Shown piece after piece: positions 26,027-41,027 of a stretch of DNA of 64,000 nucleotides. Origin of the DNA: Vibrio sp. HA2012 (GTDB lineage Bacteria; Pseudomonadota; Gammaproteobacteria; Enterobacterales; Vibrionaceae); NCBI RefSeq assembly GCF_002812955.1, contig NZ_PFXK01000001.1, positions 186,001 through 250,000 of the forward strand. The letters are read 5' to 3'. The position numbers and the translations under genes were made by a program. The notes under the pieces were generated by a model. The model was not told the DNA's origin, ran no database searches, and saw only the letters and a program-made list of their open reading frames with translations. The first letter of the stretch is position 1; each line of letters opens with the position of its first letter.

Positions 26027-28525
26027 ATGGAAAAAGTTGATAATAGAAATTTATTACGAATCATTCAATTAGTGCCGGCCACTATCATCTTTCTGGCAAG
26101 CTTCATCATTATTGGTGTAATGATTCATGATAACCGGATTGAGGCTCAGCATAATCTGAACTCATTGCGGGAAGATTATGTTGAACAGCAAAAGCAGCAG
26201 GTGCAGAACCATATCGATAACCTTACTCAGCAGTTGCTTTACCGGAAAAATCAGACAGAAAATGAGGTAAAAACCCAACTGAAGGAACGAGTTTATGAAG
26301 CCTATGCGCTGATACTCAGTATCTATGAAGAGCATGCCGACTTGCCTAAAGAACAGTTGACGAAACTGATCACTTCTGCTCTGCGTAATATCCGATTCAA
26401 TAATGGTCGTGGCTACTTTTTCATTTATTCTATGGATGGTACTAACGTCATGTTACCACCCTTGCCGGATATGGAAGGAAGCAGTCTTTGGAATATGCAA
26501 GACAGCAGGGATTCCTACATTGTTCAGGATATGGCTTCTATTGCAGCAAATAAACAGGAAGGGTATCACCGTTGGTGGTTTTATAAGCCACAGGACTTGC
26601 AGACAGACTATGAAAAGATTGGCTTTGTTAAGCATGTGGAGCCGCTGAACTGGTTTATCGGTACCGGAGAGTATGTGGCAGATTATGAATCTGATGAGAA
26701 AAAACGGATTCTTCGCTGGTTGTCTGAAATCAGGTATGGCGCATCAGGCTATGTGTTTGTGATAGATGAAAATGGGATAATACTTGCTCATCAGGACAGT
26801 TATTCCATTGGAGAGGATCGATACAATTATAAGGATGCTGAAGGGCACTATTCTGTCCAGGATATTATAAATACTGCCAGAGACGGGGGAAAAGCCGGAG
26901 GTTTTGTACATTATCACAGTTTTTTCCATCCGAGTATGGTGACGAGTAATGAAAAATTAAGCTACGTACGCTGGATTGATGACTGGGACTGGGCGATAGG
27001 TTCCGGCATTTATTTGTCGGAAGTGGACGACTATTTACAGAAGAAAGAAGTGGTATTAAAAGAGCAAAACGATCAGGAATTGACCCGGATCCTGATTTTT
27101 AGTTTTGGGATCCTTTTGACGATGGGAATGTTTGCTCTGTTCCTTGGACGAGAGGTGGCACAAAGGTTCCGGAATTTTCAGGATAAAATAAACCGGGATT
27201 TTTACGAGCTGATTTCAACTAAAAACCAGATGCAGCATATGGCTTTGTATGATTCTCTGACGGATCTGCCAAACCGGATTCAGTTTAATCAGGTTGTTCG
27301 CCGGGCGATTAAAGATGCAGATGTGACCGGGCTGTCCGTTGCCGTTGTTCTGGTTGATCTGGATAATTTTAAAAAAATTAATGATCTGTATGGGCATTCT
27401 GCCGGTGATAAGTTACTTGGGGTCGTCAGTCGTAAACTGGAAATCTTGCTGGATAAGAATGAAAACATTTCCCGGTTTGGCGGAGATGAGTTTATTTTCT
27501 GTTTTCCGAATCTGATCCGTGAAGCCGATGTTCAGGGGAAAATTCAGCGTATTCAGGATGTTCTGGATGATCCGCTTATTATTGACGGGCGGAAAGTTAA
27601 AGTCAGTTGCAGTATTGGTGTGGCAACATACCCCAGAGATGCAATGACGGCAGAAGAGCTGATAAGTAATGCTGACATTGCCCTTTACCGTGCTAAAAAT
27701 AAGCAGAAAGGGGCTGTATTATTTTTTGATGCCTCTATTGCACAGCAGGTTGAATACGAGTTTGTACTGGAAGAGCAACTTAGAGGTGCTCTGAGAAAAA
27801 ATGAAATCAGTGTTCTGTATCAACCGCAAATGGATACAGAGACAGGAAAACTGGTCAGTGTTGAAGCTTTATGTCGCTGGAATAACAGTCGGTTGGGCGC
27901 TATTTCTCCGGTTGAATTTATTGCTGTTGCTGAAGAATTGGATCTTATCCATGATATTGGTCTGTTTGTATTCCGGCAAGCTTGTCTGGATGTCCTCAAC
28001 TTTTCTCCTAACGGATTGGAAGCAATTAAACTTGCCGTTAATATTTCACCGGTTCAGCTGAAGCTACCGAATTTTTCCAGTGAAATACAAGAGATCGTCC
28101 GACAGATTGGTATTGATATTCACCGGGTAACACTGGAAGTCACGGAAAATGTGCTGGTAGATGACTACGAAGCCGTAGAGCCGGTTTTACAGGAGCTGAA
28201 AAGTCTTGGTTTTGGTATTTCACTGGATGATTTTGGTACCGGCTTCTCTTCTCTGAGTTATCTGAATAACTTACCGATTAGTGAGATTAAAATAGATCGC
28301 AGCTTTATCGATAAGATACTGATAAGTGAACAGAGCCGTTCTCTGGTCAAAGCGATTATAGCGATCAGTGAATCATGTGATATGCGTGTGGTGGCAGAAG
28401 GGGTTGAGACGGAGAAGCAGTTTGAGTGGCTTATTGAACATCGCTGTGATTATGTGCAGGGCTTCTATTTTGATCGGCCGCTGTCTGTGCAGGTACTGAC
28501 AGAAAGATATGGCAGCGTACTGTAA
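26027..28525 (+). CDS. Membrane GGDEF-EAL protein with Cache sensor
   Basis: 832 aa. Membrane helix 1 at about 15-35, a periplasmic double-Cache sensor (about 60-345; GRGYFFIYSMDG and a second repeat GASGYVFVIDENG), membrane helix 2 at about 352-372, GGDEF domain (about 410-560) with intact FGGDEF, and EAL domain (about 580-825) with intact VEALCRWN and DDFGTGFSS. It could both make and break cyclic di-GMP. The RxxD inhibitory site before GGDEF is absent (KNEN in its place). Substrate-binding residues of the EAL domain look complete, so phosphodiesterase activity is likely. The ribosome-binding site is weak. Confidence 0.93.
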   Translation: MEKVDNRNLLRIIQLVPATIIFLASFIIIGVMIHDNRIEAQHNLNSLREDYVEQQKQQVQNHIDNLTQQLLYRKNQTENEVKTQLKERVYEAYALILSIYEEHADLPKEQLTKLITSALRNIRFNNGRGYFFIYSMDGTNVMLPPLPDMEGSSLWNMQDSRDSYIVQDMASIAANKQEGYHRWWFYKPQDLQTDYEKIGFVKHVEPLNWFIGTGEYVADYESDEKKRILRWLSEIRYGASGYVFVIDENGIILAHQDSYSIGEDRYNYKDAEGHYSVQDIINTARDGGKAGGFVHYHSFFHPSMVTSNEKLSYVRWIDDWDWAIGSGIYLSEVDDYLQKKEVVLKEQNDQELTRILIFSFGILLTMGMFALFLGREVAQRFRNFQDKINRDFYELISTKNQMQHMALYDSLTDLPNRIQFNQVVRRAIKDADVTGLSVAVVLVDLDNFKKINDLYGHSAGDKLLGVVSRKLEILLDKNENISRFGGDEFIFCFPNLIREADVQGKIQRIQDVLDDPLIIDGRKVKVSCSIGVATYPRDAMTAEELISNADIALYRAKNKQKGAVLFFDASIAQQVEYEFVLEEQLRGALRKNEISVLYQPQMDTETGKLVSVEALCRWNNSRLGAISPVEFIAVAEELDLIHDIGLFVFRQACLDVLNFSPNGLEAIKLAVNISPVQLKLPNFSSEIQEIVRQIGIDIHRVTLEVTENVLVDDYEAVEPVLQELKSLGFGISLDDFGTGFSSLSYLNNLPISEIKIDRSFIDKILISEQSRSLVKAIIAISESCDMRVVAEGVETEKQFEWLIEHRCDYVQGFYFDRPLSVQVLTERYGSVL

Positions 28526-28526
28526 G

Positions 28527-28556
28527 CGGAAAATAAAATGGGGTTAGTTTTTTCCG
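28527..28556. terminator. Candidate bidirectional terminator
   Basis: CGGAAAA (28527-28533) pairs with TTTTCCG (28550-28556) around a 16-nt loop, between the convergent GGDEF-EAL and hypF genes. The hypF stop is in the loop. Modest stability. Confidence 0.4.
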
Positions 28557-30835
28557 TTGTGCAGGAGAGCAATAGCAATCTGCCCCAGAGCGAGTCCTCC
28601 ATCCCCGCAGGAATAGTCTTTGTGCTCCAGCAGGTGAATTTTACGTGACAATTTTTCTCTGAGTAATGACGAGAGGAGAGCGTTGTGAAATACTCCTCCG
28701 GTCAGGACTAGCTCATTAAGTGCGTATTGGCTCTGTGCTTTTAATACCATGCTTGCCAAGGCGTCAGCCAGCGCATGATGAAATAGCCAGGCTTTTTCTG
28801 CTGTACTACCGGTTAGTTTCAGCCAGCTGCCCCAGAAACGCCTCAGATCCAACGTTAGCTCATTCAGAGGAATAGTCAGTTGCGGATCAGTCCCGGAGTG
28901 ATGCTGCCGGGCTATTGCTTCCAGATGGCAGGCGGCTTGTCCCTCGTATTCCAGCGGGTCGGTATCCGTTATGATGTTGAGTGAAGCGGCAACAGCATCG
29001 AATAACCGCCCGGCAGAACGTATGGTGTGGGTATTTATATTTTTCGTCCATACGGTGTTTAGCTGCTGGATTGGCTTGCGAGGCAGCAGTGCAGCCAGTT
29101 CTTGCTTTGTTAGCTGTGGTAAAAATGTTCTGAGATGCGCATAATAAGCCCGCCACGGCTCTCTGGCTGCTCTGTCGCCTCCAGATAGCCGGATTGCCGG
29201 GATACCCCCGATTCTCCGCATATTCTGATAATCAGCAATACACAGCTCTCCGCCCCAGAAAGTATGGTCATCTCCCAGCCCCAGCCCATCCAGCGCCAGA
29301 GCTAGTACCGGACGATTACCCGGCTGCCGGTTATTTTCTATCAGACAAGCGGCGATATGTGCGTGATGATGCTGGACAAAGGTAATCTCTGAGGAGGATG
29401 CGGCTTGTTTTTCGGCCAGTTGATGACTGAAGTAACCGGGGTGCAGATCAGCGACATGGTGCTGGATATTCAGTTGGTAGAGAGAGGTATAGTGGCGTAT
29501 TGTTTGCTGGTACTGTTGCTGAATATTCACATTGCTCAAGTCACCAAGGTATTGACTGACAATGATCTTTCGTCCTTTCCCGATGGCAAAAGCACTTTTC
29601 AGGTCGCCACCGTAGGCCAGATAGCCATCGGCATCCGGAAAACCTTCAGGAAGATCCAACGCATCCGGCACCATCCCTCTTGAACGGCGCAGGACTTCTG
29701 TATGCTGGTTATCAACCCGTAACAGGGAATCGTCACAGCGCTGTATGATCGGTCTATTATGCAGAATAAACCGATCCGTCAGATGGCCCAGGGTCACCAG
29801 TGCGGCTTTGTTTTCTATGGCTGGAGGGTATCCGCTGGCATTGCCTGATGTCATGACCAGTGGATAAGGAAAAGCTCTGGCAAGCAAATGCTGAAGTGGA
29901 TTGGAGGGAAGCATAATACCGATTTCGGCCAGACCTGGGGCTATATTATCAGCCAGTGATGTCGGTGCTTTTTTCTTCAGTAGCAGGATAGGCGCCATGC
30001 CGGAAGTCAGTATTTTCTGCTGAAGCTGACTGCAACAGGCAAGATCCCGAACCGCATTGATATTTGCAGCCATAATGGCAAAGGGTTTATGTCTGCGCTG
30101 TTTTCTCTGCCTGAGGGTAGCCACTGCGTTATTATCGCAGGCATTGCAGACCAGATGAAAACCACCGACTGATTTAATCGCTATGATTTGCCCTTGCTTC
30201 AGTGCATTGACGGCATGTGTCAGCCAGTGTCCTGGCAGTTGAGTGCCCTCTCTATTCGTTATCCACACATTGGGACCGCACTCAGTACAGGCGGTTGGTT
30301 GAGCGTGATAACGGCGATTCGCCGGATTTCTGTATTCTGAATCGCAGGCCGGGCAGAGTGGAAAATGGCGCATGACGGTATTCGATCTGTCATAGGGCAT
30401 GGCCTGAATGATCGTAAACCTTGGTCCGCAATGCGTACAGTTGATAAAAGGATACCGGTAGCGCCGGTTGGTACGGTCATGTAATTCAGCCAGACAAGCG
30501 GGGCAGGTAGCGGCATCCGGTACGATTTGGGTATTGATTGCAGTTGTGGCGGAAGCAGTGATCCGAAAGTTATCTGGCCAGTCCGTCCATTTATATTCCG
30601 CCATTGTCAGCGAGTCAACACAGGCAAGAGGCGGCAACCGGGTTAGCAGTGCCTGACGGAATCGTTCTATCTGTCCACCGGTTGTTTTCGTGGTCAGCCG
30701 GATAATAACCCCTTCACCGTCATTAAAAACCTCTCCTTTCAGGTGAAATTCCTGTGTCAGTTGCCAGATAAAAGGACGAAAGCCAACGCCCTGAACTTTT
30801 CCTCTGACTCTGATCTCCGTTCCTTTCATCTGCAT
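28544..30835 (-). CDS. hypF: Carbamoyltransferase HypF
   Basis: 763 aa hydrogenase maturation protein. It turns carbamoyl phosphate into the thiocarbamate that becomes the CN ligands of the NiFe site. Domains in order: acylphosphatase (VRGKVQGVGFRPF, about 8-95); two zinc fingers (CPACLAEL...CTHCG and CPACDSEY...CTECG, about 110-190); YrdC-like ATP domain (about 200-390); Kae1-like carbamoyltransferase domain with VQHHHAHIAAC (about 400-763). GGAG eight bases before the ATG. Last gene of the hypABCDEF unit. Confidence 0.97.
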   Translation of the reverse strand: MQMKGTEIRVRGKVQGVGFRPFIWQLTQEFHLKGEVFNDGEGVIIRLTTKTTGGQIERFRQALLTRLPPLACVDSLTMAEYKWTDWPDNFRITASATTAINTQIVPDAATCPACLAELHDRTNRRYRYPFINCTHCGPRFTIIQAMPYDRSNTVMRHFPLCPACDSEYRNPANRRYHAQPTACTECGPNVWITNREGTQLPGHWLTHAVNALKQGQIIAIKSVGGFHLVCNACDNNAVATLRQRKQRRHKPFAIMAANINAVRDLACCSQLQQKILTSGMAPILLLKKKAPTSLADNIAPGLAEIGIMLPSNPLQHLLARAFPYPLVMTSGNASGYPPAIENKAALVTLGHLTDRFILHNRPIIQRCDDSLLRVDNQHTEVLRRSRGMVPDALDLPEGFPDADGYLAYGGDLKSAFAIGKGRKIIVSQYLGDLSNVNIQQQYQQTIRHYTSLYQLNIQHHVADLHPGYFSHQLAEKQAASSSEITFVQHHHAHIAACLIENNRQPGNRPVLALALDGLGLGDDHTFWGGELCIADYQNMRRIGGIPAIRLSGGDRAAREPWRAYYAHLRTFLPQLTKQELAALLPRKPIQQLNTVWTKNINTHTIRSAGRLFDAVAASLNIITDTDPLEYEGQAACHLEAIARQHHSGTDPQLTIPLNELTLDLRRFWGSWLKLTGSTAEKAWLFHHALADALASMVLKAQSQYALNELVLTGGVFHNALLSSLLREKLSRKIHLLEHKDYSCGDGGLALGQIAIALLHNGKN

Positions 30836-30867
30836 ATTGGTTTCTCCGGATTGTTCCGTCTCTAACG

Positions 30868-31881
30868 CTAGCAGATTCTGGGCATTGGCTCAGAAGAGGG
30901 TAAGTCCAGCCAGCGACAACCGCCAAAAGCATGTTGTATGGTTACCTGACAACTGGTATCTGTTTCACCAATAATAGCGGCAGATTCTCCACCAGACACC
31001 TGTTGCATAGCCAGTAATGCTTTTTCTGCGTCCTGTTCCGCTACGATAGCAACCAGTTTTCCTTCGTTGGCAAAGTTAAGGGCATCCAGCCCGAGTAGCT
31101 CGCACAGCCCCCGTACTTCAGGAGTGATCGGCAGAGCGGTTTCATTAAGCCGGAATCCACAGCCAGAAAGCGGAATGAATTCATGCAGTACAGCATTCAC
31201 ACCACCTCTGGTCGCATCCCGCAATGTGCGGACTCCCTGCACGGGGAGTAAGGCTTCAACCAAAGGATACAGATGTTGGCAATCACTCTTGAGCCGGGTT
31301 TCTAGCCCAAGATCTTCGCGCAGATTCAAGATGGTTGCCCCGTGGTCGCCAAGTGTTCCAGATAACAGAATACGATCTCCGGGCTGGATTTTTTCTGCCC
31401 CCCAGCAGATACCTGAAGGGATCACACCAATACCACTGGTATTAATAAACAGCTTGTCTGCAGCTCCTTTGGGGACCACTTTTGTATCCCCGGTTACGAT
31501 CTGAATGCCGACCTGACCGGCAGTCTGAGCCATGGAGTAAACGACAGATTCGAGAGTTTCCAGTGATAACCCTTCCTCTAGAATAAAGGCAGCAGAAAGG
31601 TACAGGGGTTTGGCTCCGCACATGGCTATATCGTTAGCTGTTCCGCAGACGGCGAGCGTACCTATATTGCCTCCGGGAAAGAATAACGGGTCAATAACGA
31701 ACGAATCGGTGGTATAAGCAAGCTGCTCTCCCTGAGCAATAAGGTGAGCAAGAGACAGCCTTGCCTGATCTTCCTGACGGCACAGGGTATCGTTAGCAAA
31801 ATAGTGCAGAAACAGTTCTTGGAGTAGTTGCTGCATCATTTTACCGCCGCTGCCATGAGCCAGTGTGATTCTGTCGGACAT
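30868..31881 (-). CDS. hypE: Carbamoyl dehydratase HypE
   Basis: 337 aa. It dehydrates the carbamoyl group on its C-terminal cysteine to thiocyanate, giving the CN donor. The required C-terminus PRIC is intact, as is the N-terminal GSGG motif. Start choice: the ATG at 31881 overlaps the hypD stop (TAATG), with GGAGG before it; the longer frame to 31968 lies inside hypD. Next gene is hypF, 32 nt on. Confidence 0.97.
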   Translation of the reverse strand: MSDRITLAHGSGGKMMQQLLQELFLHYFANDTLCRQEDQARLSLAHLIAQGEQLAYTTDSFVIDPLFFPGGNIGTLAVCGTANDIAMCGAKPLYLSAAFILEEGLSLETLESVVYSMAQTAGQVGIQIVTGDTKVVPKGAADKLFINTSGIGVIPSGICWGAEKIQPGDRILLSGTLGDHGATILNLREDLGLETRLKSDCQHLYPLVEALLPVQGVRTLRDATRGGVNAVLHEFIPLSGCGFRLNETALPITPEVRGLCELLGLDALNFANEGKLVAIVAEQDAEKALLAMQQVSGGESAAIIGETDTSCQVTIQHAFGGCRWLDLPSSEPMPRIC

Positions 31882-33047
31882 TATATTTCCTCCGGATAAT
31901 GCATATCTGAGCCTGGTGGTGGCTGAGTCTGAGGAGATGGTGGTGTATATTGATAATAAGCTGCACATGCACCTTCTGATGAGACCATTAGAGCCCCTAT
32001 GGCCGTTTCAGGCGTGCACTGCTGGCCAAATAGCGGACAGTCTGTTGGTTTACAACGACCGGTCAGAACATTATTGCACAGTCCTGACTTTGTTTTCTCT
32101 GCCTGAGGCGAAGTGATTTCTGGCACAGGAAAAGCTTCCGCGTCAAAATTGCGATAGGCATCCCGCAGGCGGATACCAGAGCCGGGTATTGCACCAAGGC
32201 CTCGCCATTCGCTTTCTTCTTTAGTGGTAAATACGTCGGACATAGCCCGCTGGGCGTACAGATTTCCCTCAGTGGTAACGACCCGGCGATACTGATTTTC
32301 AATGGCACAGCGTTTTTCTTTTATCTGCGTCACCAGCATAAGCAGAGCATGAAGCATATCCAATGGTTCAAAGCCCGAAACGACACAGGGTTTGTGAAAT
32401 CGGTCTGCCAGAGGCTGATAGGGTCGAGTGCCGGTAATGACGGAAAGATGACCGGGAAGCAGAAAACCGTCTATCCGGATCTTTTCCTGTTCCAGTAATG
32501 TTGTCAGTACCGGCATGATGGTGATGTGCTGACAAAATATTTTAAAATTTCTTATCTTTTTTTTGTGCGCCTGCAGCACGGTCATTGCGGTTGCTGGCAT
32601 GGTGGTTTCAAATCCCAGCGCAAAAAAAACGATTTGTTTATCCGGATATTTTTCGGCCAGAGCCAGTGCATCCAGAGGAGAATAAACGATACGTATGTCG
32701 CATCCCTTAGCCCGGGCATCCAGCAGGGAGCCATCGGAGCCGGGTACCCGCATGGCATCACCGAAGGTACATAAAATTGTATCGGACTGGCGGGCAACAG
32801 CCATACATTGATCCAGACGGAGGGTTGGAAGAACACAAACCGGACAGCCAGGCCCATGTATAAATTCAATATCGTCCGGAAGTAGTTGCAGGATACCGTA
32901 TTTAAACAGAGTATGAGTGTGTCCACCGCAGACTTCCATAATCTGCAGTGGTTTTTGTTGCTCAGGGAGGGCGGATAATAGACGGGAGAGTGCGGCAACA
33001 AGGCCGTTTACAATCCCCGGATTGCGGAATTCATCTACATATTTCAT
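31881..33047 (-). CDS. hypD: Hydrogenase maturation scaffold HypD
   Basis: 388 aa scaffold that, with HypC, holds the iron while CN and CO ligands are added. It shows the typical CGGHTHTLFKYG and GPGCPVCVLP cysteine motifs and the C-terminal Fe-S cysteines (CNNVLTGRCKPTDCPLFG). Length is normal. It lies 13 nt after hypC. Confidence 0.97.
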   Translation of the reverse strand: MKYVDEFRNPGIVNGLVAALSRLLSALPEQQKPLQIMEVCGGHTHTLFKYGILQLLPDDIEFIHGPGCPVCVLPTLRLDQCMAVARQSDTILCTFGDAMRVPGSDGSLLDARAKGCDIRIVYSPLDALALAEKYPDKQIVFFALGFETTMPATAMTVLQAHKKKIRNFKIFCQHITIMPVLTTLLEQEKIRIDGFLLPGHLSVITGTRPYQPLADRFHKPCVVSGFEPLDMLHALLMLVTQIKEKRCAIENQYRRVVTTEGNLYAQRAMSDVFTTKEESEWRGLGAIPGSGIRLRDAYRNFDAEAFPVPEITSPQAEKTKSGLCNNVLTGRCKPTDCPLFGQQCTPETAIGALMVSSEGACAAYYQYTPPSPQTQPPPGSDMHYPEEI

Positions 33048-33060
33048 TCCTTACCTCCGG

Positions 33061-33303
33061 TTAACCATCCAGTTTCTGCAGAGTGGCCAGCGCTTCTAAT
33101 GTTGCTTTTGCCTGTACGTCATCAATGACACACATGGCGAATCCTACATGGATCAGAACCCAGTGGTTAAGCAGTGCCTCCGGGGAATCCTGTGCGACGC
33201 ACGCAAGGTTAACCTCCCGCCGGAGCCCACAAATATCCACAATGCCGCTCAGGCCATCGGCATCGGTAATATCGACCACCTTTCCCGGTACGCCCAGACA
33301 CAT
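33061..33303 (-). CDS. hypC: Hydrogenase maturation chaperone HypC
   Basis: 80 aa small chaperone. The N-terminal MCLGVPGKV with the iron-binding Cys 2 is diagnostic. It carries the Fe(CN)2CO unit between HypD and the large subunit precursor. Only one hypC/hybG-type gene is present in the window. Three nt separate it from hypB. Confidence 0.97.
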   Translation of the reverse strand: MCLGVPGKVVDITDADGLSGIVDICGLRREVNLACVAQDSPEALLNHWVLIHVGFAMCVIDDVQAKATLEALATLQKLDG

Positions 33304-33306
33304 AGG

Positions 33307-33984
33307 TTATCGTCCTTGCAGCCAGTCCAGCCATGCCTGCATACCTTCCCCGGTTGTGGCAGAAAGCAGTAATGGTTGAGCACTGGGATTGATTCTGTGG
33401 ATATATTCGGTACAGGCATTCAGATCGAAGTCCAGATGGGGCAGTAGATCGGCCTTATTGATCAGAATAAGATCTGCTTTAGCAAATACATCCGGATACT
33501 TTAATGGTTTATCTTCTCCTTCAGTGACAGATAGCATAACGATTTTATAGTTTTCCCCCAGATCGAAGGCTGCCGGACAGATAAGGTTACCGACATTTTC
33601 AATAAAGAGGGTTGTATTCGGTTCTGGCATCAGTTGAATGAGCGCATCCGCTACCATCTGGGCATCTAAGTGGCAGCCTTTACCTGTATTGATCTGTATC
33701 GCTTTTGTTCCTGTCGCCCGGATTCGTTCGGCATCGTTGCTGGTCTGCTGATCCCCTTCGATAACCAGGCAGTGTTGAGAATCAAGACACTGCAGGGTTT
33801 CGGTCAGTAGTGTCGTTTTTCCGGAACCCGGACTGGATATCATATTCAGCGTTTTAATATTGTGTTTAGTCAGAAAGCTCCGGTTTTGTGCGGCAATTGT
33901 ATTGTTCTTTGCCAGCAGATCCTGCTTCACCTGTATTATCCGGACTGGTGTGTTACTGTTTCCGCAGCCACATGTTGTACACAT
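33307..33984 (-). CDS. hypB: GTPase nickel-insertion protein HypB
   Basis: 225 aa GTPase that inserts nickel into the large subunit together with HypA. It has the N-terminal metal motif MCTTCGCG (Cys 2, 5, 7) and the P-loop SSPGSGKT at 50-57, plus NKAD for guanine specificity. There is no His-rich nickel-storage stretch at the N-terminus. Overlaps hypA by one base. Confidence 0.97.
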   Translation of the reverse strand: MCTTCGCGNSNTPVRIIQVKQDLLAKNNTIAAQNRSFLTKHNIKTLNMISSPGSGKTTLLTETLQCLDSQHCLVIEGDQQTSNDAERIRATGTKAIQINTGKGCHLDAQMVADALIQLMPEPNTTLFIENVGNLICPAAFDLGENYKIVMLSVTEGEDKPLKYPDVFAKADLILINKADLLPHLDFDLNACTEYIHRINPSAQPLLLSATTGEGMQAWLDWLQGR

Positions 33985-34325
33985 TAGTAAACCTCCAGTT
34001 GTCGAATCTGCATCTCATCTCCTCCCTGATATTCAAGGTGATAGGTGCCGCAATGTGGACATGGAGAAAACCGATCTGACAGACTGACGGTTTTTCCACA
34101 GGTTAAGCAGTATGCCTGAAGCGGGAGACTGCGGATAATCAGTTTTGCCGAGTCGGCAATGGTGCCACGGCAAATCACATCAAAGCAGAAGTACATTGCC
34201 CCGGGCTCAACCCCGGCCAGTGCACCGATATCAAGATAAATGGCTTTCACCTGATCGAATTGTTCTGCCTCAGCCTGTTGTTCAATGATCCGGATCAGAC
34301 TTTCACATAACGACATTTCATGCAT
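33984..34325 (-). CDS. hypA: Nickel metallochaperone HypA
   Basis: 113 aa. N-terminal MHEMSLCESL with the nickel-binding His 2 and a zinc site of two CxxC motifs (CLTCG and CPHCG, about 71-95). Delivers nickel to HypB and the hydrogenase large subunit. First gene of the minus-strand hyp unit; the structural genes start 215 nt away on the other strand. Confidence 0.96.
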   Translation of the reverse strand: MHEMSLCESLIRIIEQQAEAEQFDQVKAIYLDIGALAGVEPGAMYFCFDVICRGTIADSAKLIIRSLPLQAYCLTCGKTVSLSDRFSPCPHCGTYHLEYQGGDEMQIRQLEVY

Positions 34326-34540
34326 GGCACTACTGTTTCCGTATTCATCTCATATCAGAGAATCTTAGTTCTTAATATTAAAGATAGTCAATATCTGGCA
34401 TTTTCTGTGTTCTATACTCAAGTTATCGCTGGAAACTCAGGTGGTTGATCACAGATGTACTGGTTTCCTGTGGGCACTACTATATCTATGCGGTAAGTGT
34501 TCTACCGATAACAACAAGAATGGAGGCTCGGAACTGAACC
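34326..34540. promoter_or_regulatory. Divergent hyp/hyd control region
   Basis: 215 nt between hypA and hydB, which point away from each other, so both promoters lie here. A small hairpin CGGTA/TACCG stands about 20 nt before the GGAGG (34522-34526) of hydB. No convincing sigma-54, FNR or CRP site could be read. TTGATCAC near 34444 is only a half-match. Confidence 0.55.
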
Positions 34541-35689
34541 GTGGAGTCGAAATTTCATAAGGCACAGCTGGACAGAGAAAAGTTCCATACCCTGTTTGAT
34601 GTGTTACATCGTCAGAATTACAAGATCGTCGGGCCGGTTATTCGGGATGGTGCGATTGTCTTCGAGCATGTGACTTCTCCGGAGCAGCTTGCCTGTGATG
34701 TCATCGATGAACAGGCTCCGGGACACTACGCCCTGAGAAATATGCATACGGGGCGTTATTTTAGCTGGAGCAACGGACCCCAGGCACTCAAGCCACTATT
34801 GTTTAAGCCTCAGCAGGTTTTATGGCGTTGCCACGCCGATGATGCACAGTTATCGTTTTATCCCTACCCGGTAGACGCTGACCCTATTGCTGTTATTGGT
34901 GTACGGGCTTGTGACCTGGCCGCTCTGGCGTTGCAGGATCAGCACTTTTTGCATGGCGATTATTGTGACCGGTTTTATCAGGCTCAGCGGAACAATCTGT
35001 TGCTGATTGCCGTTAACTGCAGCCATAGCTCTGCTCAATGTTTCTGTGTTTCTACCGGAGACGGACCGGAAGTCTCTTTCTACTATGATTTGTTGCTGGA
35101 TGAGCTGGAAGACAGTTTCCTGCTTGCAAGTGGTAGCGAGAAAGGAACCGGTATACTGGAGCAACTGCCCCTTAACAGGGCAACGCCACAGCAGGAAAAA
35201 CAAGCTAGAAAACAGACTGAAAGTGCAGCTCGGGAACAGAAAAAAATATTACCGGGTAGCCGGCAACTGGCCGGGCTGGCGACATGGCTGAATGCAGATG
35301 GCTGGGAGTCGGTTGCAGAGCGTTGTCTGGCTTGTGGTAACTGCTCGCTGGTGTGTCCCACTTGCTTTTGCAGTAAACAAGAAACAGAAAGTGATCTTTC
35401 CCTTGCTCAGTCGATGCAGATCCGGTTGTGGGATTCTTGTTTCAGTGAGGAGCACGGGCATATCTTTGGCAAAAATTATCGTCCGGAAATTGCTTCCCGC
35501 TACAGGCAGTGGATGCTGCATAAACTGGTGTTCTGGCAGCAGCAATATGGTCGTTCGGGCTGCGTGGGATGCGGACGCTGTATTAGCTGGTGCCCGGCTG
35601 CAATCGATCTGGTTGAAGAGGCACAGCGCTTATTGGAGTTGCTGCCGGAAAGAGAGCAGAAAAGAACCGGAGGCTGCCATGGAGAATAA
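34541..35689 (+). CDS. hydB: Sulfhydrogenase beta subunit, 4Fe-4S electron transfer (HydB-like)
   Basis: 382 aa. Carries two ferredoxin-type clusters near the C-terminus: CLACGNCSLVCPTC (about 265-278) and CVGCGRCISWCP (about 344-355), as in HydB/AsrA proteins that link the hydrogenase to sulfur or polysulfide reduction. The N-terminal half has GVRACDLAALALQD, typical of the same family. The start is GTG; an ATG at 34520 is in frame but is stopped at once. The GGAGG is 14 nt from the GTG, unusually far. First gene of hydBGDA. Confidence 0.93.
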   Translation: MESKFHKAQLDREKFHTLFDVLHRQNYKIVGPVIRDGAIVFEHVTSPEQLACDVIDEQAPGHYALRNMHTGRYFSWSNGPQALKPLLFKPQQVLWRCHADDAQLSFYPYPVDADPIAVIGVRACDLAALALQDQHFLHGDYCDRFYQAQRNNLLLIAVNCSHSSAQCFCVSTGDGPEVSFYYDLLLDELEDSFLLASGSEKGTGILEQLPLNRATPQQEKQARKQTESAAREQKKILPGSRQLAGLATWLNADGWESVAERCLACGNCSLVCPTCFCSKQETESDLSLAQSMQIRLWDSCFSEEHGHIFGKNYRPEIASRYRQWMLHKLVFWQQQYGRSGCVGCGRCISWCPAAIDLVEEAQRLLELLPEREQKRTGGCHGE

Positions 35690-36500
35690 GATGACGCCTG
35701 TTACCGCCACGTTGGTGGATAAAACAGAAGAAGTACTGGATATCGTGACATTGTCACTAAAAATGAATGACAATGTTCCCTTTGAGTTTCAGTTTGGGCA
35801 ATTCAACATGCTTTCTCTGTTTGGCATCGGGGAAGTGGCTATTTCTATTATGGGCTGGAGGAATGGTTTGCTTTTACACACCATTCGTTCCGTTGGGCGT
35901 GTTACGCATGCTTTAACCGCAATCAACCCGGGTCAGCAGATAGGTATCCGAGGGCCTTTTGGTAAAGGCTGGCCTCTGGAACATGCTGTCGGAAAAGATC
36001 TGGTGTTTATTACTGCCGGTCTGGGTTGCGCGCCGGTGGTTGCGGCTATTCACTATGCCGTTCAGCACCGGCAGAATTTCCGCCGTATAGTAATACTGCA
36101 GGGGGTTAAACATCATCAGGATCTGTTGTGGTTGCCTCAGTACGAGATCTGGCGGGACCAGCATAACTGTCAGGTGCTTCTGGCTGCCAGTGAAGAATAT
36201 CAGGTGATGAAGCACTGGAAGCTGGGGATGGTAACCGGATTGCTGAATAATGCAGAGTTCGCCATAGATAACTGTGTTGTCATGATGTGTGGACCGGAAA
36301 TTATGATGAAGGCGGCTATCAGGCAATTGGTTCAGCTCGGGGTTACAGAAGATGCCTGTTATCTGAGTATGGAACGGAATTTCCAATGTGGGCAGGGGTT
36401 TTGTGGTCACTGTCAGATCGGTCCGTATTTTGTGTGTAAGGATGGCCCTGTATTTCACTATCCACAGATCAAGCCCTGGTTTGGTATCGGAGGCTTTTAA
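35679..36500 (+). CDS. hydG: Sulfhydrogenase gamma subunit, FAD/NAD(P)-binding (HydG-like)
   Basis: 273 aa ferredoxin-reductase-type flavoprotein that passes electrons between NAD(P)H and the clusters. Seen: the flavin-binding stretch GQFNMLSLFG.GEVAISIMG, the nucleotide-binding FITAGLGCAPV, CGPEIMM, and the C-terminal 2Fe-2S cysteines CGQGFCGHCQIGPYFVC. Start choice: the ATG at 35679 with GGAGG before it, overlapping hydB by 11 nt; the longer frame is an artefact of an alternative phase inside hydB. Overlaps hydD by one base. Confidence 0.94.
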   Translation: MENKMTPVTATLVDKTEEVLDIVTLSLKMNDNVPFEFQFGQFNMLSLFGIGEVAISIMGWRNGLLLHTIRSVGRVTHALTAINPGQQIGIRGPFGKGWPLEHAVGKDLVFITAGLGCAPVVAAIHYAVQHRQNFRRIVILQGVKHHQDLLWLPQYEIWRDQHNCQVLLAASEEYQVMKHWKLGMVTGLLNNAEFAIDNCVVMMCGPEIMMKAAIRQLVQLGVTEDACYLSMERNFQCGQGFCGHCQIGPYFVCKDGPVFHYPQIKPWFGIGGF

Positions 36501-37309
36501 TGAGAAAAGTGAAGGTCGCGATTCATAAACTCACGTCATGTTCCGGCTGTCAGCTTGCTTTTCTGAATCAGGGAGCGGGACTGCTTACGTTACTGGAACA
36601 TATCGAAATCTGTCATTTTGTCGAGGGTGGAGTTGATAACCCGGAAGTGAAGGTTGACGTTGCTTTTGTTGAGGGAAGCATTTCGACTCCGCATGATCTG
36701 GCCCGGGTACAGAACCTACGGACAAACTGCCGGGTTCTGGTTTCTGTCGGAGCCTGTGCGACGTCAGGTGGTGTGCAGGCATTGCGGAATCTTTCCTTTC
36801 TGTATGGTGATGCTGCAAGGATGAAAGCGGCGGTATATGCCTGCCCGGATTATATTGCGACGCTGGACAGATCAGAACCGGTTCACAAGGTGGTCACAGT
36901 CGATTATGAACTGTGGGGATGTCCGGTATCTCCCCAGCAGGTGAACCGTTTCATTTCCCAGTTATTGCTTGGTGCCGAACCCAAAGAAGAAAAAGAGAAA
37001 CTCTGCATGCAATGTAAACGGTCGCAAAATGTGTGTGTTCTGGTTACCGGTCAGTCGCCTTGTCTGGGAGCGGTAACCCGTACAGGCTGCGGTGCTATAT
37101 GCCCATCATACGGTAAAGCATGCTATGCCTGTTATGGACCATCTGAGCAGCCGAATACTCACAGTCTGGCCAATCGTTTGCAGGGATTCGGTCTGGTCGG
37201 AAGGGATATCGTCCAGCGTTTCGCTCAGTTTCACAGCCATAACCCGGTATTCAGGAAAGAGATTGCACGCTGGGAAGGGCATCATCCCCTGCATGAGGAC
37301 GATGTATGA
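36500..37309 (+). CDS. hydD: NiFe hydrogenase small (delta) subunit HydD
   Basis: 269 aa electron-transfer subunit of the NiFe core. The proximal cluster motif CSGCQ is at 14-18, with further cysteines in SVGACATSGG, WGCPVSPQQ and the C-terminal CMQCKRSQNVC / CGAICPSYGKACYACYGP group. There is no Tat signal, so the enzyme is cytoplasmic, as expected for group 3. Starts in the stop of hydG (TAATG) and overlaps hydA (ATGA). Confidence 0.96.
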   Translation: MRKVKVAIHKLTSCSGCQLAFLNQGAGLLTLLEHIEICHFVEGGVDNPEVKVDVAFVEGSISTPHDLARVQNLRTNCRVLVSVGACATSGGVQALRNLSFLYGDAARMKAAVYACPDYIATLDRSEPVHKVVTVDYELWGCPVSPQQVNRFISQLLLGAEPKEEKEKLCMQCKRSQNVCVLVTGQSPCLGAVTRTGCGAICPSYGKACYACYGPSEQPNTHSLANRLQGFGLVGRDIVQRFAQFHSHNPVFRKEIARWEGHHPLHEDDV

Positions 37310-38604
37310 ATACCCGGAAAATCCGTCTCAACGTTCCTTTTATTACCCGTGTTGAAGGTGAAGCCTCGCTGGAGCTGATTGCCCGTGGGGAGCTGCTGGA
37401 TGCATTGCACATGCGCATATTCGAACCACCGCGTTTGTTTGAACAATTTCTAACCGGGAAAAATTATAACGATGTACCTGAATTGACCGCACGGATTTGT
37501 GGTATTTGTCCGATGGCTTATCAACTGACGTCCATTTTAGCACTGGAAAAACTATTCCATGTTCAGGTTTCAGAGCCAGTGATGCAATTACGCCGGGTTA
37601 TGAATCTGGCGGAATGGATTCAGAGCCATGCCCTGCATATTCATTTTCTGGCATTACCTGATTTTCTTGGCTTTTCTAACGGGCTGGAAATGGCAAAAGT
37701 GCATACCGAACTTTTTAACCGGGGGATAAAAATTCAGGCTTTTGGTAATCAGGTTATGTCGTTGTTGGGAGGGCGTAGTGTACATCCCGTCGGACTGAAA
37801 GTCGGAGGGTTCGAAGGTCTTCCTAAGCTGAATGACTTAATGGATTTGCAGGGATCAGCAGAAGAAGCACGTCATTTGGCGGAATTGCTGGTGCTGTTTT
37901 GTTCTTCTCTGGAGCGTCCGGACTATTCCCACAGTTTTGACTATGTCAGCCTCAAATCCGGGCTGCATTACCCCATCAACCATGGCCGTATTGTCAGTGC
38001 TTCGGATATCGATATTGATCCGGAAGCATATGAAGAGTGTTTTCAGGAACATCAGGAAGCGCATTCTACGGCACTCTATTCTCTGTTGCACAACAGTGAT
38101 TATCTGGTAGGACCGCTAGCCCGTTTTAACCATAATTTTTCTGTGCTGGACAGCGATACCCGACGGTTAGCTATCCAGGTAGGGCAGACAGGTGAAAGTC
38201 AGAATATGTACGACAGTATTCTGATCCGGGCTCTGGAAATCCATTATGCCTGTCGGGAGATTGGGCAGATTCTGGCTGGTTTTACGCCACCGGAAGATGC
38301 TTATGTGCCAGTTACTGTTTGTGCGGGAACTGCTTGTCATGCAACGGAGGCTCCCCGGGGGCTGATTTATCATCGGTATAATATCGATGCCGACGGAAAA
38401 GTAATGAATTGTACGATTATCCCGCCGACGAGCCAGAATCAGGCTCGTATAGAGCGGGATTTAAGTGATTCAGTACAACGATTCGGTCTGGGGCATAGTG
38501 ATGAAGAGCTAAAATTGTTCTGTGAGCAGTTAATCCGTAATTATGACCCCTGCATTTCCTGTTCAACCCATTTCCTGAAACTGAAGGTAACCAGAAATAA
38601 ATAA
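37306..38604 (+). CDS. hydA: NiFe hydrogenase large (alpha) subunit HydA, group 3b
   Basis: 432 aa catalytic subunit. The four nickel-binding cysteines are present: RICGICP (Cys 65, 68) and DPCISC (Cys 416, 419). After His 422 a 10-residue C-terminal peptide (FLKLKVTRNK) remains, the part removed by the maturation protease encoded downstream. The short tail and sequence fit group 3b NAD(P)-linked bidirectional hydrogenases. It should interconvert H2 and NAD(P)H, possibly also reducing sulfur. Overlaps hydD by 4 nt. Confidence 0.97.
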   Translation: MNTRKIRLNVPFITRVEGEASLELIARGELLDALHMRIFEPPRLFEQFLTGKNYNDVPELTARICGICPMAYQLTSILALEKLFHVQVSEPVMQLRRVMNLAEWIQSHALHIHFLALPDFLGFSNGLEMAKVHTELFNRGIKIQAFGNQVMSLLGGRSVHPVGLKVGGFEGLPKLNDLMDLQGSAEEARHLAELLVLFCSSLERPDYSHSFDYVSLKSGLHYPINHGRIVSASDIDIDPEAYEECFQEHQEAHSTALYSLLHNSDYLVGPLARFNHNFSVLDSDTRRLAIQVGQTGESQNMYDSILIRALEIHYACREIGQILAGFTPPEDAYVPVTVCAGTACHATEAPRGLIYHRYNIDADGKVMNCTIIPPTSQNQARIERDLSDSVQRFGLGHSDEELKLFCEQLIRNYDPCISCSTHFLKLKVTRNK

Positions 38605-38619
38605 CCGGTGAGTCTGCTT

Positions 38620-39117
38620 ATGATCAATATTATCTGTTTTGGAAACCCTTTGTGTGCTGATGATGGTGCTGGACATGCTGTTTTTCAGCAACTGAAATCA
38701 ACACTGGAAAGTGAGCCGGAGCTGGAATCGCATATCCAGTTGTTTTATGGCGGAAATTCAGGTCAGAGAGCTTTGCCTTATTTTATGAATTGCTCAGATG
38801 TCATTGTTGTTGATGCGCTGTTAGATCGTGGCGCACCTTCTCCCGGAAGGATTTACCGTCTGGATGCAGACGATCTGGATGATATTGATGATGAGCGGGA
38901 GAGTATTGGATTCAGCACACATATCCTTGCTTTGCCACAAAGCTGGAGACTGTTAAAAGAGCTGAAAAATACGCTGCCGGCGCTGACGGTATTTGCGATT
39001 GAGATTGCCGACACGACCCTGTACCGGGAAGGGTTGAGCCGGGAAGTTCAGGAAGCAACATGTTCGGTTACGCAGAAAATTATCCGGCAGTGCAAAGAAC
39101 TTATGTGTTCAGAATAA
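38620..39117 (+). CDS. Hydrogenase maturation protease
   Basis: 165 aa HyaD/HycI-family endopeptidase. The N-terminal GNPLCADDGAG holds the first nickel-sensing acidic residue, and VIVVDALLDRG holds the second. It cuts the C-terminal peptide of HydA after nickel is inserted. The ATG at 38620 gives MINIICFGNPL, normal for the family; a GTG at 38608 in frame is a less likely start. Lies 15 nt after hydA and completes the operon. Confidence 0.93.
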   Translation: MINIICFGNPLCADDGAGHAVFQQLKSTLESEPELESHIQLFYGGNSGQRALPYFMNCSDVIVVDALLDRGAPSPGRIYRLDADDLDDIDDERESIGFSTHILALPQSWRLLKELKNTLPALTVFAIEIADTTLYREGLSREVQEATCSVTQKIIRQCKELMCSE

Positions 39118-39167
39118 AACGGTGGTAACTTAATTGTTAACTATTTTGTGGTTTTGGGTAAAGTGCA

Positions 39168-41027
39168 ATGATAAAAAATAAACATATCTACTACAAGTTC
39201 ATTGTTTGCCTGCTTTTTTTTAGCTTATGTATCACGTCATTATCAGTTTTTTTGATTAACCAGCATAATCAAAACGTGCTTGATGCTTCTGTTGCAGAGA
39301 ATACGGCTTTTCTGCAACAGAGTGCCATGTCTGCGACACAGGCATTCGCTGTTTCTTCTTCCCGTGCCGTCCGGACATTGTGGGAAAGTGAAGAACTGGA
39401 CAGTTTTATCAATACCGGGTCGGAAGCATCATTTAACATGCTTGAACGTCTGATGCAGAATATTTTAAAGATGAGTTTCAGTTATTACCGGGTTGATGTT
39501 ACCGGTGCAGACGGTGTGGTTTTGCTTTCACTGGCGCGTTCTGATAACGGAATGGTACACAAACAGTTACACAGACATGAAGTCTGTCTGTTACCTGAAA
39601 GCCAACCGGAAAATAACTATGCGGTCTGGTTTTCTGAGATCACGCTGAATCAGGCATCGTCAACTGATTCAGCATTTCATACCATGAGTGTTAGTAAGCC
39701 TCTTTACCATCAAAATCTTTTCGTTGGACAGGTGGTTTTGTATCTGAAGATGGATTTCCTGCTTGAGGTGCTGACCCGTAACGGTAATCTGGATGCTTAT
39801 CTGATGAATGAGCATGGACGGATTATTGCCACTTCTTTGCCGGCAGAAATGACCTATCCTTCTGCACAGCCAGTACTGTTTCAGACACTATCCGGAGTTA
39901 GTGATATTCATTCAGAAGATGCGATGCATGAGAAAGGCTTCTCGGTGCAGAATTTGACTAACCTTCCTTCCCTAGGGGGGCTGACATTGATCAGCCATGC
40001 TGCGACTCAGTTTATTGCTGCAAGAGAGGAAGAGTACAGAAACTCATTGATTAAAATAGCGTTAATCGTTATGAGTTTTTCTATTCTTGCAGGGATGCTG
40101 ATTGCAATCAATCCTTCCCGGACAATGGGGCAACTGGAGATTGTTTCCAGAGACCGGAGCCGCTATATGAAACTGTTAGATCAGTATGTGCCGGTTCTGG
40201 AAACGGATATTCGTGGTTCGATTACCCGTGTCAATCAGGCTTTTACGGACATCAGCGGCTACAGTGAAGAAGAACTTCTGGGAAAATCAGCGGCCGTCCT
40301 GAGCTTTAGCCAGAATGATGAGCAGATGGCTGAAGTGTGGGGTATTCTTGAAAGTGGTCTTCCTTGGCAGGGAGAATTTCATAACCGGACTCAGAGTGGC
40401 TCTGAATTCTGGATATTCAGTACGGTTATCCCTATGTATAAGAATGAAAAAGACCTGACGGGGTATATGTCTATTTCTGTAGACAGAACCGAGAGAAAGC
40501 AACTGGAAGTTTTTGCAGAAACGGACGCGCTGACGGAGATTTATAATCGGCGTAAAATTGACCGGATTTTACAGCAGGAATGTGAACGCAGTAAACGATA
40601 CGGTTCGCTGTTTTCTGTGTTAATGATGGATATTGACCATTTTAAACGGGTCAATGATCGTTACGGGCATCTGGTCGGGGACAAGGTACTTAACCGGTTG
40701 GCTGTACTGCTGAACGACAATACCCGGGCTGTTGATGAAGTCGGTCGCTGGGGAGGCGAAGAATTTCTTGTAATTTGCCCAGAAACGGATCTGGATGCAG
40801 CGACGATTGCAGCAGAGAAGATAAGAAAAGCCATACAGCAGTATGATTTTCCGGGCATTGACCGTATTACTATCAGTATTGGTGTTGAAGTGTATAAGCC
40901 TGATCAGGGTCTGAAAGAGACCCTAGAGCAGGCGGATTATTATCTGTATCAGGCTAAGAAGAAGGGACGTAACCGGGTTATCAGCCGGTTGTCCCGAAAG
41001 GATGAGTCATATGGCTCTGAGACTTAA
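39168..41027 (+). CDS. Membrane PAS-GGDEF diguanylate cyclase
   Basis: 619 aa. Membrane helix 1 at about 8-28, a periplasmic sensor region (about 30-290) without a named domain, membrane helix 2 at about 292-315, a PAS domain (about 335-440; ITRVNQAFTDISGYSEEEL), and a GGDEF domain with an active WGGEEF. An RxxD inhibitory site (RAVD) sits five residues before GGEEF, so product feedback is likely. It should make cyclic di-GMP. It starts 50 nt after the protease gene on the same strand and may be cotranscribed with the hydrogenase; convergent with ygiQ. Confidence 0.93.
   Translation: MIKNKHIYYKFIVCLLFFSLCITSLSVFLINQHNQNVLDASVAENTAFLQQSAMSATQAFAVSSSRAVRTLWESEELDSFINTGSEASFNMLERLMQNILKMSFSYYRVDVTGADGVVLLSLARSDNGMVHKQLHRHEVCLLPESQPENNYAVWFSEITLNQASSTDSAFHTMSVSKPLYHQNLFVGQVVLYLKMDFLLEVLTRNGNLDAYLMNEHGRIIATSLPAEMTYPSAQPVLFQTLSGVSDIHSEDAMHEKGFSVQNLTNLPSLGGLTLISHAATQFIAAREEEYRNSLIKIALIVMSFSILAGMLIAINPSRTMGQLEIVSRDRSRYMKLLDQYVPVLETDIRGSITRVNQAFTDISGYSEEELLGKSAAVLSFSQNDEQMAEVWGILESGLPWQGEFHNRTQSGSEFWIFSTVIPMYKNEKDLTGYMSISVDRTERKQLEVFAETDALTEIYNRRKIDRILQQECERSKRYGSLFSVLMMDIDHFKRVNDRYGHLVGDKVLNRLAVLLNDNTRAVDEVGRWGGEEFLVICPETDLDAATIAAEKIRKAIQQYDFPGIDRITISIGVEVYKPDQGLKETLEQADYYLYQAKKKGRNRVISRLSRKDESYGSET

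Follow-up and report, generated by a model that had tools for sequence, protein, structure and literature searches.

Gene content of the locus

The window analysed here is a stretch of 64,000 nucleotides from Vibrio sp. HA2012, and our subject is a [NiFe]-hydrogenase locus at its positions 28544-39117, in which eleven genes are open and intact: hypFEDCBA on the minus strand and, divergently on the plus strand, hydBGDA followed by the gene of a maturation protease (Table 1). An initial annotation of this DNA had described hydBGDA, the protease and the hyp genes as packed into one divergent block, and they are found so. For each of HypF, HypE, HypD, HypB and HypA one or more curated NCBIfam equivalog cut-offs are exceeded, as is the subfamily cut-off for HypC, and the starts given for hypE (31881) and hydG (35679), both shorter than those of the longest open reading frames (ORFs), are the most likely ones. 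A PF00374 profile search of the 3.76 Mb genome matched HydA as the sole [NiFe] large subunit and, since no other was matched, the hyp set would serve HydA as its one known client.

Table 1. Features of the hydrogenase locus, in positions of the window (SHI, soluble hydrogenase I of Pyrococcus furiosus)
Feature	Positions	Strand	Support
hypF, carbamoyltransferase	28544..30835	-	TIGR00143, 781 bits vs cut-off 466
hypE, C-terminal Cys; start codon overlaps hypD stop	30868..31881	-	TIGR02124, 433 bits vs cut-off 252
hypD	31881..33047	-	TIGR00075, 507 bits vs cut-off 193
hypC	33061..33303	-	TIGR00074 (HypC subfamily), 71 bits vs cut-off 48
hypB, without His-rich N-terminal stretch	33307..33984	-	TIGR00073, 282 bits vs cut-off 121
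hypA	33984..34325	-	TIGR00100, 111 bits vs cut-off 88
Divergent control region, 215 bp	34326..34540	.	Holds candidate -10 box TATACT
hydB, beta subunit, Fe-S electron transfer	34541..35689	+	P. furiosus SHI beta, E 8.2e-36; Fer4_22
hydG, gamma subunit, FAD/NAD(P)-binding with 2Fe-2S motif	35679..36500	+	SHI gamma, E 2.7e-38; NAD_binding_1, DHODB_Fe-S_bind
hydD, delta (small) subunit	36500..37309	+	P. furiosus SHI delta, E 5.9e-44; PF01058
hydA, alpha (large, NiFe) subunit, tail after presumed cleavage site	37306..38604	+	SHI alpha, E 2.5e-53; PF00374
Hydrogenase maturation protease	38608..39117	+	TIGR00072, 85 bits vs cut-off 47; PF01750

Integrity of the enzyme and of its maturation set

The four structural subunits match the chains of P. 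furiosus sulfhydrogenase 1 with E-values far beyond chance (2.5e-53 to 8.2e-36), as expected from the Pyrococcus-like subunit set that had been announced for this locus, and in alignments with 10 or 11 other rows the window copy holds every cysteine that is common to the P. furiosus and bacterial enzymes. In HydA these include C65, C68, C416 and C419, common to P. furiosus and all other aligned rows and recognised by motif as the nickel ligands; HydD has twelve cysteines common to P. furiosus and all other aligned rows, HydB fifteen common to all aligned rows (124, 160, 167, 169, six in 262-277, 300 and four in 341-351) and HydG five (206, 239, 244, 247 and 255, counted from two residues before Met1). 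A few extra HydG and HydB cysteines of P. furiosus are found in no bacterial row. The assignment of individual cysteines to cluster binding is one that we assume. Three further HydA cysteines, at columns 344, 369 and 406, occur in the five vibrios that carry the enzyme and in two genomes of other families, G294 and G151 (the window and loci L055, L056, L057, L058, L062, L066), and are absent from P. furiosus; that of column 406 is common to all bacterial rows aligned.

The C-terminal residue of HypE is a cysteine and HydA extends ten residues beyond DPCISCSTH, so that, with the four nickel ligands, nothing is missing from the parts that the initial annotation had listed as complete. One structure of the P. 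furiosus large subunit (9e15) stops at the His that matches the end of DPCISCSTH, which supports cleavage of HydA after this residue, and the other (9nez) extends four residues more. Against Vibrio albus, the non-synonymous divergence (dN) of the eleven genes is 0.08-0.30 and synonymous sites are near saturation, in the locus and its flanks alike; the eleven genes have therefore been under long purifying selection.

A bacterial group 3b hydrogenase

Judged from its sequence, the locus encodes a bacterial [NiFe]-hydrogenase of group 3b in full. The large subunit has both CxxC nickel-ligand motifs and is nearest to 3b among the group 3 enzymes: against the PDB, HydA ranks the archaeal 3b enzymes SHI and Hyh first (181-187 bits), followed by Mvh (133), the NAD-reducing enzyme (116) and the F420-reducing enzymes (98 at most). 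The four-subunit HydBGDA architecture, with its flavin/NAD(P) and Fe-S subunits, is present. No subunit passes an NCBIfam equivalog model of sulfhydrogenase 1 or 2 (NF040832/33/35/36 and NF040828-31), the two scores being 199 of 880 and 249 of 700 bits for HydA, 135 of 750 and 143 of 690 for HydB, 146 of 650 and 145 of 600 for HydG, and 166 of 500 and 139 of 460 for HydD. Because all of these cut-offs are missed, we do not file the locus as a Pyrococcus-type sulfhydrogenase.

A sulfhydrogenase proper, with the reduction of elemental sulfur or polysulfide to H2S as its physiological role, appears to us highly improbable. The homology of all four subunits to P. furiosus sulfhydrogenase 1 speaks for it, as do the scores of HydB and HydG against the anaerobic sulfite reductase subunits AsrA and AsrB, which stay below cut-off; against it stand the distance of the four subunits from the sulfhydrogenase cut-offs and, in Mycobacterium smegmatis, a mutant without any hydrogenase that still makes H2S, which a passage of a review gives against a sulfur role in that organism (PMC6311188).

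A known counterpart is sulfhydrogenase 1, or soluble hydrogenase I, of P. furiosus (PDB 9nez, 9e15), which has the four subunits and the cysteines in common with the vibrio enzyme, and whose gene order we take to be hydB-G-D-A as well. The two differ in sequence (30% identity in HydA, 33% in HydG, 34% in HydD), in a motif that reads RICGIC in the vibrio and RICSFC in P. furiosus, and in the HydA tail, of ten residues in the former and four in the latter. Near the presumed NADP site of HydG, in a stretch whose alignment is uncertain, the vibrio protein and those of G294 and G151 have a Glu (AASEE) where P. furiosus has an Arg (SVTRD), and plasmid group 3b proteins have an Asp nearby. Since the HydG residue aligned with the P. 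furiosus Arg is acidic, NADH is a possible coenzyme.

These plasmid operons, from Burkholderia and Rhodococcus (NZ_CP013419, NZ_AP023173 and NZ_CP118328), share with the vibrio locus the order hydB, hydG, hydD, hydA, protease, the RICGIC motif and a C-terminal HFL tail; all three that were examined (B. savannae and two Rhodococcus) have a cyclic-nucleotide-binding gene between hydB and hydG, which the vibrio locus lacks. Hyd3 of M. smegmatis can be likened to the vibrio locus by gene order alone.

An archaeal origin was considered and is unsupported: bacterial relatives of HydA are closer, and the hydBGDA order is also found on bacterial plasmids. In the HydA tree, which has one long Mvh row as its root, an unstarred branch (86/95) leaves Mvh together with the archaeal 3b rows on one side, and because of that branch and that root the rejection draws on sequence identity and gene order no less than on the tree. 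The subunit set is Pyrococcus-like, but the term "archaeal-type sulfhydrogenase", under which the locus was first described, is misleading and finds no support in its evolutionary sense, the nearest relatives being bacterial and the P. furiosus HydA only 30% identical.

Relatives and their distribution

HydA relatives above 60% identity are rare in the genus: among its 227 genomes, 5 have one, that of the window included. The distribution is patchy, and the vibrio host suggested by the initial annotation is confirmed. The four others are V. albus (G450, 83%), V. hangzhouensis (G491, 71%), V. hannami or a very near species (G492, 67%) and G568 (64%); three more genomes of the genus (G494, G528, G529) pass E 1e-10 with partial HydA matches of only 30-34%. 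Outside the genus, identity is 57-59% in family f25 and in G151 (family f16), and 49% in G077 (f18); more distant group-3-like proteins in G082, G165, G251, G261 and G329 are 26-31% identical. HydA relatives also occur in 17 plasmid records, the full-length ones being 38-45% identical except for one from Sulfurimonas at 24%.

In a tree of the four subunits, built from 16 rows (G077 was left out since its contig holds only HydA), the five vibrios form a clade (100/100) beside a clade of the f25 and f16 rows (96/98). The structural genes would thus represent a bacterial lineage common to four other sampled vibrios and two or three families of the order. The divergent hyp-hyd-protease block of the window recurs in V. 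albus and V. hangzhouensis, whereas G492 and G568 have hydBGDA without adjoining hyp genes, and among the four other vibrio carriers V. albus is the only one found with the locus at the genomic site of the window.

Origin of the maturation genes

The hyp genes of G492 and G568 lie at a separate site, beside hybOABC, the genes of hydrogenase 2 (Hyd-2). In G568 the small subunit, HybA, cytochrome b and large subunit score over Hyd-2-type equivalog cut-offs, and in G492 the small and large subunits do so. HypD was found in 34 of the 227 genus genomes, and our tree of HypD and HypE comprises 37 rows, 32 from these 34 (G049 and G039 were left out) and five others. In this tree the window, V. albus and V. 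hangzhouensis share a nine-row clade (100/100) with the Hyd-2-linked cassettes of G568 and G492, from which the hyp genes found next to the 3b enzyme in f25 and G151 are separate. The nearest relatives of the hypD-hypE pair of the window are in this sense the maturation cassettes of vibrio Hyd-2. The linkage was profile-checked in two of the six other rows of the clade (G568 and G492); two others (G037 and G013) have, about 4 kb from hypD, a large subunit with ends like those of G568 and G492, and the remaining two rows are G557 and G452.

The client of these cassettes differs: those linked to Hyd-2 serve Hyd-2, which the genome of the window lacks by PF00374. The number of His residues among the first 150 of HypB is 47 in G568 and 46 in G492, as against 12 in V. 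albus, 5 in V. hangzhouensis and 3 in the window. Because its hyp genes group with the Hyd-2-linked hyp genes of vibrios and not with those of the 3b loci of other families, the self-contained module looks assembled inside Vibrio, and a hybrid that arose within the genus is its simplest reading. The hyp cassette would have been taken over from the Hyd-2 locus of a vibrio and linked with the structural operon, in an order of events that we infer.

Descent within Vibrio

RpoB was matched in 223 of the 227 genus genomes (that of the window included), and the three nearest to the window, G450, G492 and G568, all carry the structural genes. The initial annotation had set its idea of a transferable module against vertical descent in all close relatives, and the result is divided: the structural genes are indeed present in these three, but G492 and G568 keep their hyp genes in the Hyd-2 locus, so that not all close relatives have simply inherited the packed module.

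As the RpoB protein tree (42 rows) did not resolve the Vibrio backbone, a tree of rpoB DNA was used, with 32 rows: the 30 nearest vibrios (the window among them), plus G491 and one outgroup, ten more distant rows being dropped. A clade of the window with G450, G492 and G568 is not rejected in the approximately unbiased test (p-AU 0.367), whereas a clade of all five carriers is (p-AU 5.5e-6), and V. hangzhouensis is sister to the non-carrier G035 among the 31 vibrios. Because the five-carrier clade is rejected and this sister is a non-carrier, the presence of the locus in V. hangzhouensis requires either many losses or a transfer.

An old presence in Vibrio, followed by losses in most lineages, would dispense with transfer between vibrios and is quite possible, although we find it somewhat doubtful. 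The HydA-only tree places V. hangzhouensis outside the four other vibrios, as vertical descent would give (93/89, and 91/89 with 17 rows), the vertical order also survives the test on the four-subunit alignment (p-AU 0.405), and the near saturation of synonymous sites against V. albus, in locus and flanks alike, fits an old presence. On the other side, the carriers do not form one clade by rpoB DNA, the window, V. albus and V. hangzhouensis share a divergent hyp-hyd-protease block that is absent in G492 and G568, the four-subunit tree joins V. hangzhouensis to the window and V. albus, though weakly (74/63), and for HydA alone this grouping is 4.5 log units worse, a difference too small for its rejection (p-AU 0.143).

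A recent transfer by plasmid or phage was also considered and set aside. There is no near DNA match to the locus in 72,556 plasmid records, 50,697 phage records gave two weak partial matches only, no tRNA is found in the 64,000-nt window, and the GC content of the eleven genes (46-54%) overlaps that of four flanking genes (42-49%) and of the V. albus copy. The distance from a dgcA-like gene to ygiQ, measured between match edges, is 0.21-0.25 kb in G568 and G037, 12.5 kb in the window and 13.1 kb in V. albus. The short spacing was seen in two of the eight ygiQ neighbourhoods fetched, with dgcA matches that are 48-53% identical and tandem, and it is only suggestive of an empty site of the locus.

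Flanks, control region and nickel supply

Two cyclic di-GMP (c-di-GMP) genes flank the locus, a dCache-GGDEF-EAL gene at 26027-28525 and a PAS-GGDEF gene at 39168-41027, and both occupy the same places in V. albus. As to signs of a chromosomal mobile island, the window has no tRNA gene, and the immediate neighbours of the locus are these two genes. The latter starts 50 bp past the protease gene and may be cotranscribed with it.

Upstream of hydB, the divergent control region holds a candidate -10 box, TATACT (34413-34418), which was seen by eye in all five vibrio carriers. The promoter scan of 34000-39400 stayed at chance level, its promoter and terminator counts equalling those of shuffles. 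Candidate FNR, CRP and sigma-54 sites were rejected, the consensus scans having given only matches with 2-3 mismatches, none of them seen conserved between species.

The initial annotation noted that the locus lacks a nickel transporter, which is correct for the eleven genes. In the rest of the genome no NikA scores over cut-off (there are six weaker matches), and one NicO-family protein is encoded on contig C15 near 477583 (L072), by a gene that lies between an ORF resembling DUF1007 and one resembling a glycyl radical enzyme.

Proposed function

The model that we favour, and that we consider probable as a whole, combines a bacterial group 3b enzyme, working mainly as an NAD(P)H-to-H2 redox valve under shortage of oxygen or other acceptors, with a hyp cassette recruited from a vibrio Hyd-2 locus. 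HydD and HydA would form the H2-active module, HydB would relay electrons through its Fe-S clusters, and HydG would carry FAD and bind NAD(P)H. By analogy with their families, HypA-F would assemble the NiFe site and insert it, and the linked protease would remove the tail of HydA behind the His of DPCISCSTH. The most probable role would be that of a cytoplasmic and reversible valve, running mainly from NAD(P)H to H2 under oxygen limitation, a direction and a regulation that we infer, and the reducing power would be supplied by the oxidation of pyruvate.

The neighbours of the operon in its relatives point to the pyruvate node. In G492 and V. hangzhouensis the 3b operon lies by genes for phosphoenolpyruvate (PEP) synthase and a P-type ATPase (L057, 3725-13175; L185, 4348-9432), which are 80% and 79% identical between the two genomes although their hyp arrangements differ; in V. 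hangzhouensis the PEP synthase scores over its cut-off and the ATPase, nearest to calcium types, below. Pyruvate dehydrogenase genes lie downstream in four of the seven f25 and f16 loci compared (G084, G294, G407 and G151; G442 was outside the comparison), acetate-CoA ligase is found at the G084 and G151 loci, and G568 has a gene for acetate kinase some 1.8 kb upstream of hydB. Among the plasmid copies, PEP synthase is nearby in B. savannae and R. qingshengii, and universal stress and DUF1876 genes occur in both Rhodococcus. The DUF1876, wax-ester synthase and universal stress genes presumably resemble the mycobacterial DosR hypoxia regulon.

In data on M. smegmatis, the genes MSMEG_3931-3927, annotated as beta, gamma, delta, alpha and peptidase and thus in the order of the vibrio locus, have expression ratios of 7.6-67 in the third column, that of lowest oxygen, which we read as 0.6% oxygen (PMC2799521). 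A passage of the review cited above, with reference to Berney 2014, states that group 3b enzymes can form H2 from NAD(P)H in fermentation (PMC6311188), and the group 3b entry of a HydDB table gives NADPH to H2, reversible (PMC5037454). It is because of these pyruvate-node neighbours, the low-oxygen ratios of M. smegmatis and the review on fermentative H2 that we favour the low-oxygen valve.

Several observations weigh against the model. The window locus itself has no PEP synthase, ATPase or pyruvate dehydrogenase neighbours, and has the two c-di-GMP genes instead; pyruvate dehydrogenase genes were not seen in three of the seven f25 and f16 loci (G323, G156 and G304, of which G304 is at the end of a contig); the divergent region has no FNR or CRP site that convinces, consensus matches there having 2-3 mismatches; the HypD and HypE tree comes with warnings of long branches, and its outgroup rows do not form a single clade; and group 3b enzymes are also able to oxidise H2, as the same review notes in one passage (PMC6311188).

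The last point leads to the reading in which the same enzyme is mainly an H2 uptake system, making NAD(P)H from environmental H2. The reversibility of group 3b in the table entry (PMC5037454) allows it, and group 3b is said in part of the review to feed CO2 fixation in Hydrogenobacter (PMC6311188); since pyruvate and acetate genes neighbour the operon in several relatives, however, we judge uptake unlikely as the main function. The favoured valve can also be extended into a portable, self-sufficient NADH-to-H2 device, in which a 3b operon that is normally a low-oxygen pyruvate module would have been combined with Hyd-2 hyp genes, Hyd-2 and the His-rich HypB lost, and the block moved into V. 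hangzhouensis; this fuller scenario we consider rather unlikely.

Conclusion

H2 production by vibrios is usually ascribed to formate hydrogenlyase. For three marine Vibrionaceae it is given as the source of H2, and the table rows available for them show no group 3b entry (PMC2974642). In the open literature on Vibrio with group 3b hydrogenase or sulfhydrogenase, no title or abstract opening among the papers listed concerned this locus, and no paper was found naming both Vibrio albus and hydrogenase, most subscription journals lying outside the coverage of either search. The enzyme belongs to an already known kind, the group 3b [NiFe]-hydrogenases, and its presence in a few vibrios provides a soluble, mesophilic relative of the Pyrococcus enzyme with a maturation set of its own. 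It would also offer a natural case of a maturation cassette that has changed its client hydrogenase, and as such it bears on the specificity of the Hyp proteins.

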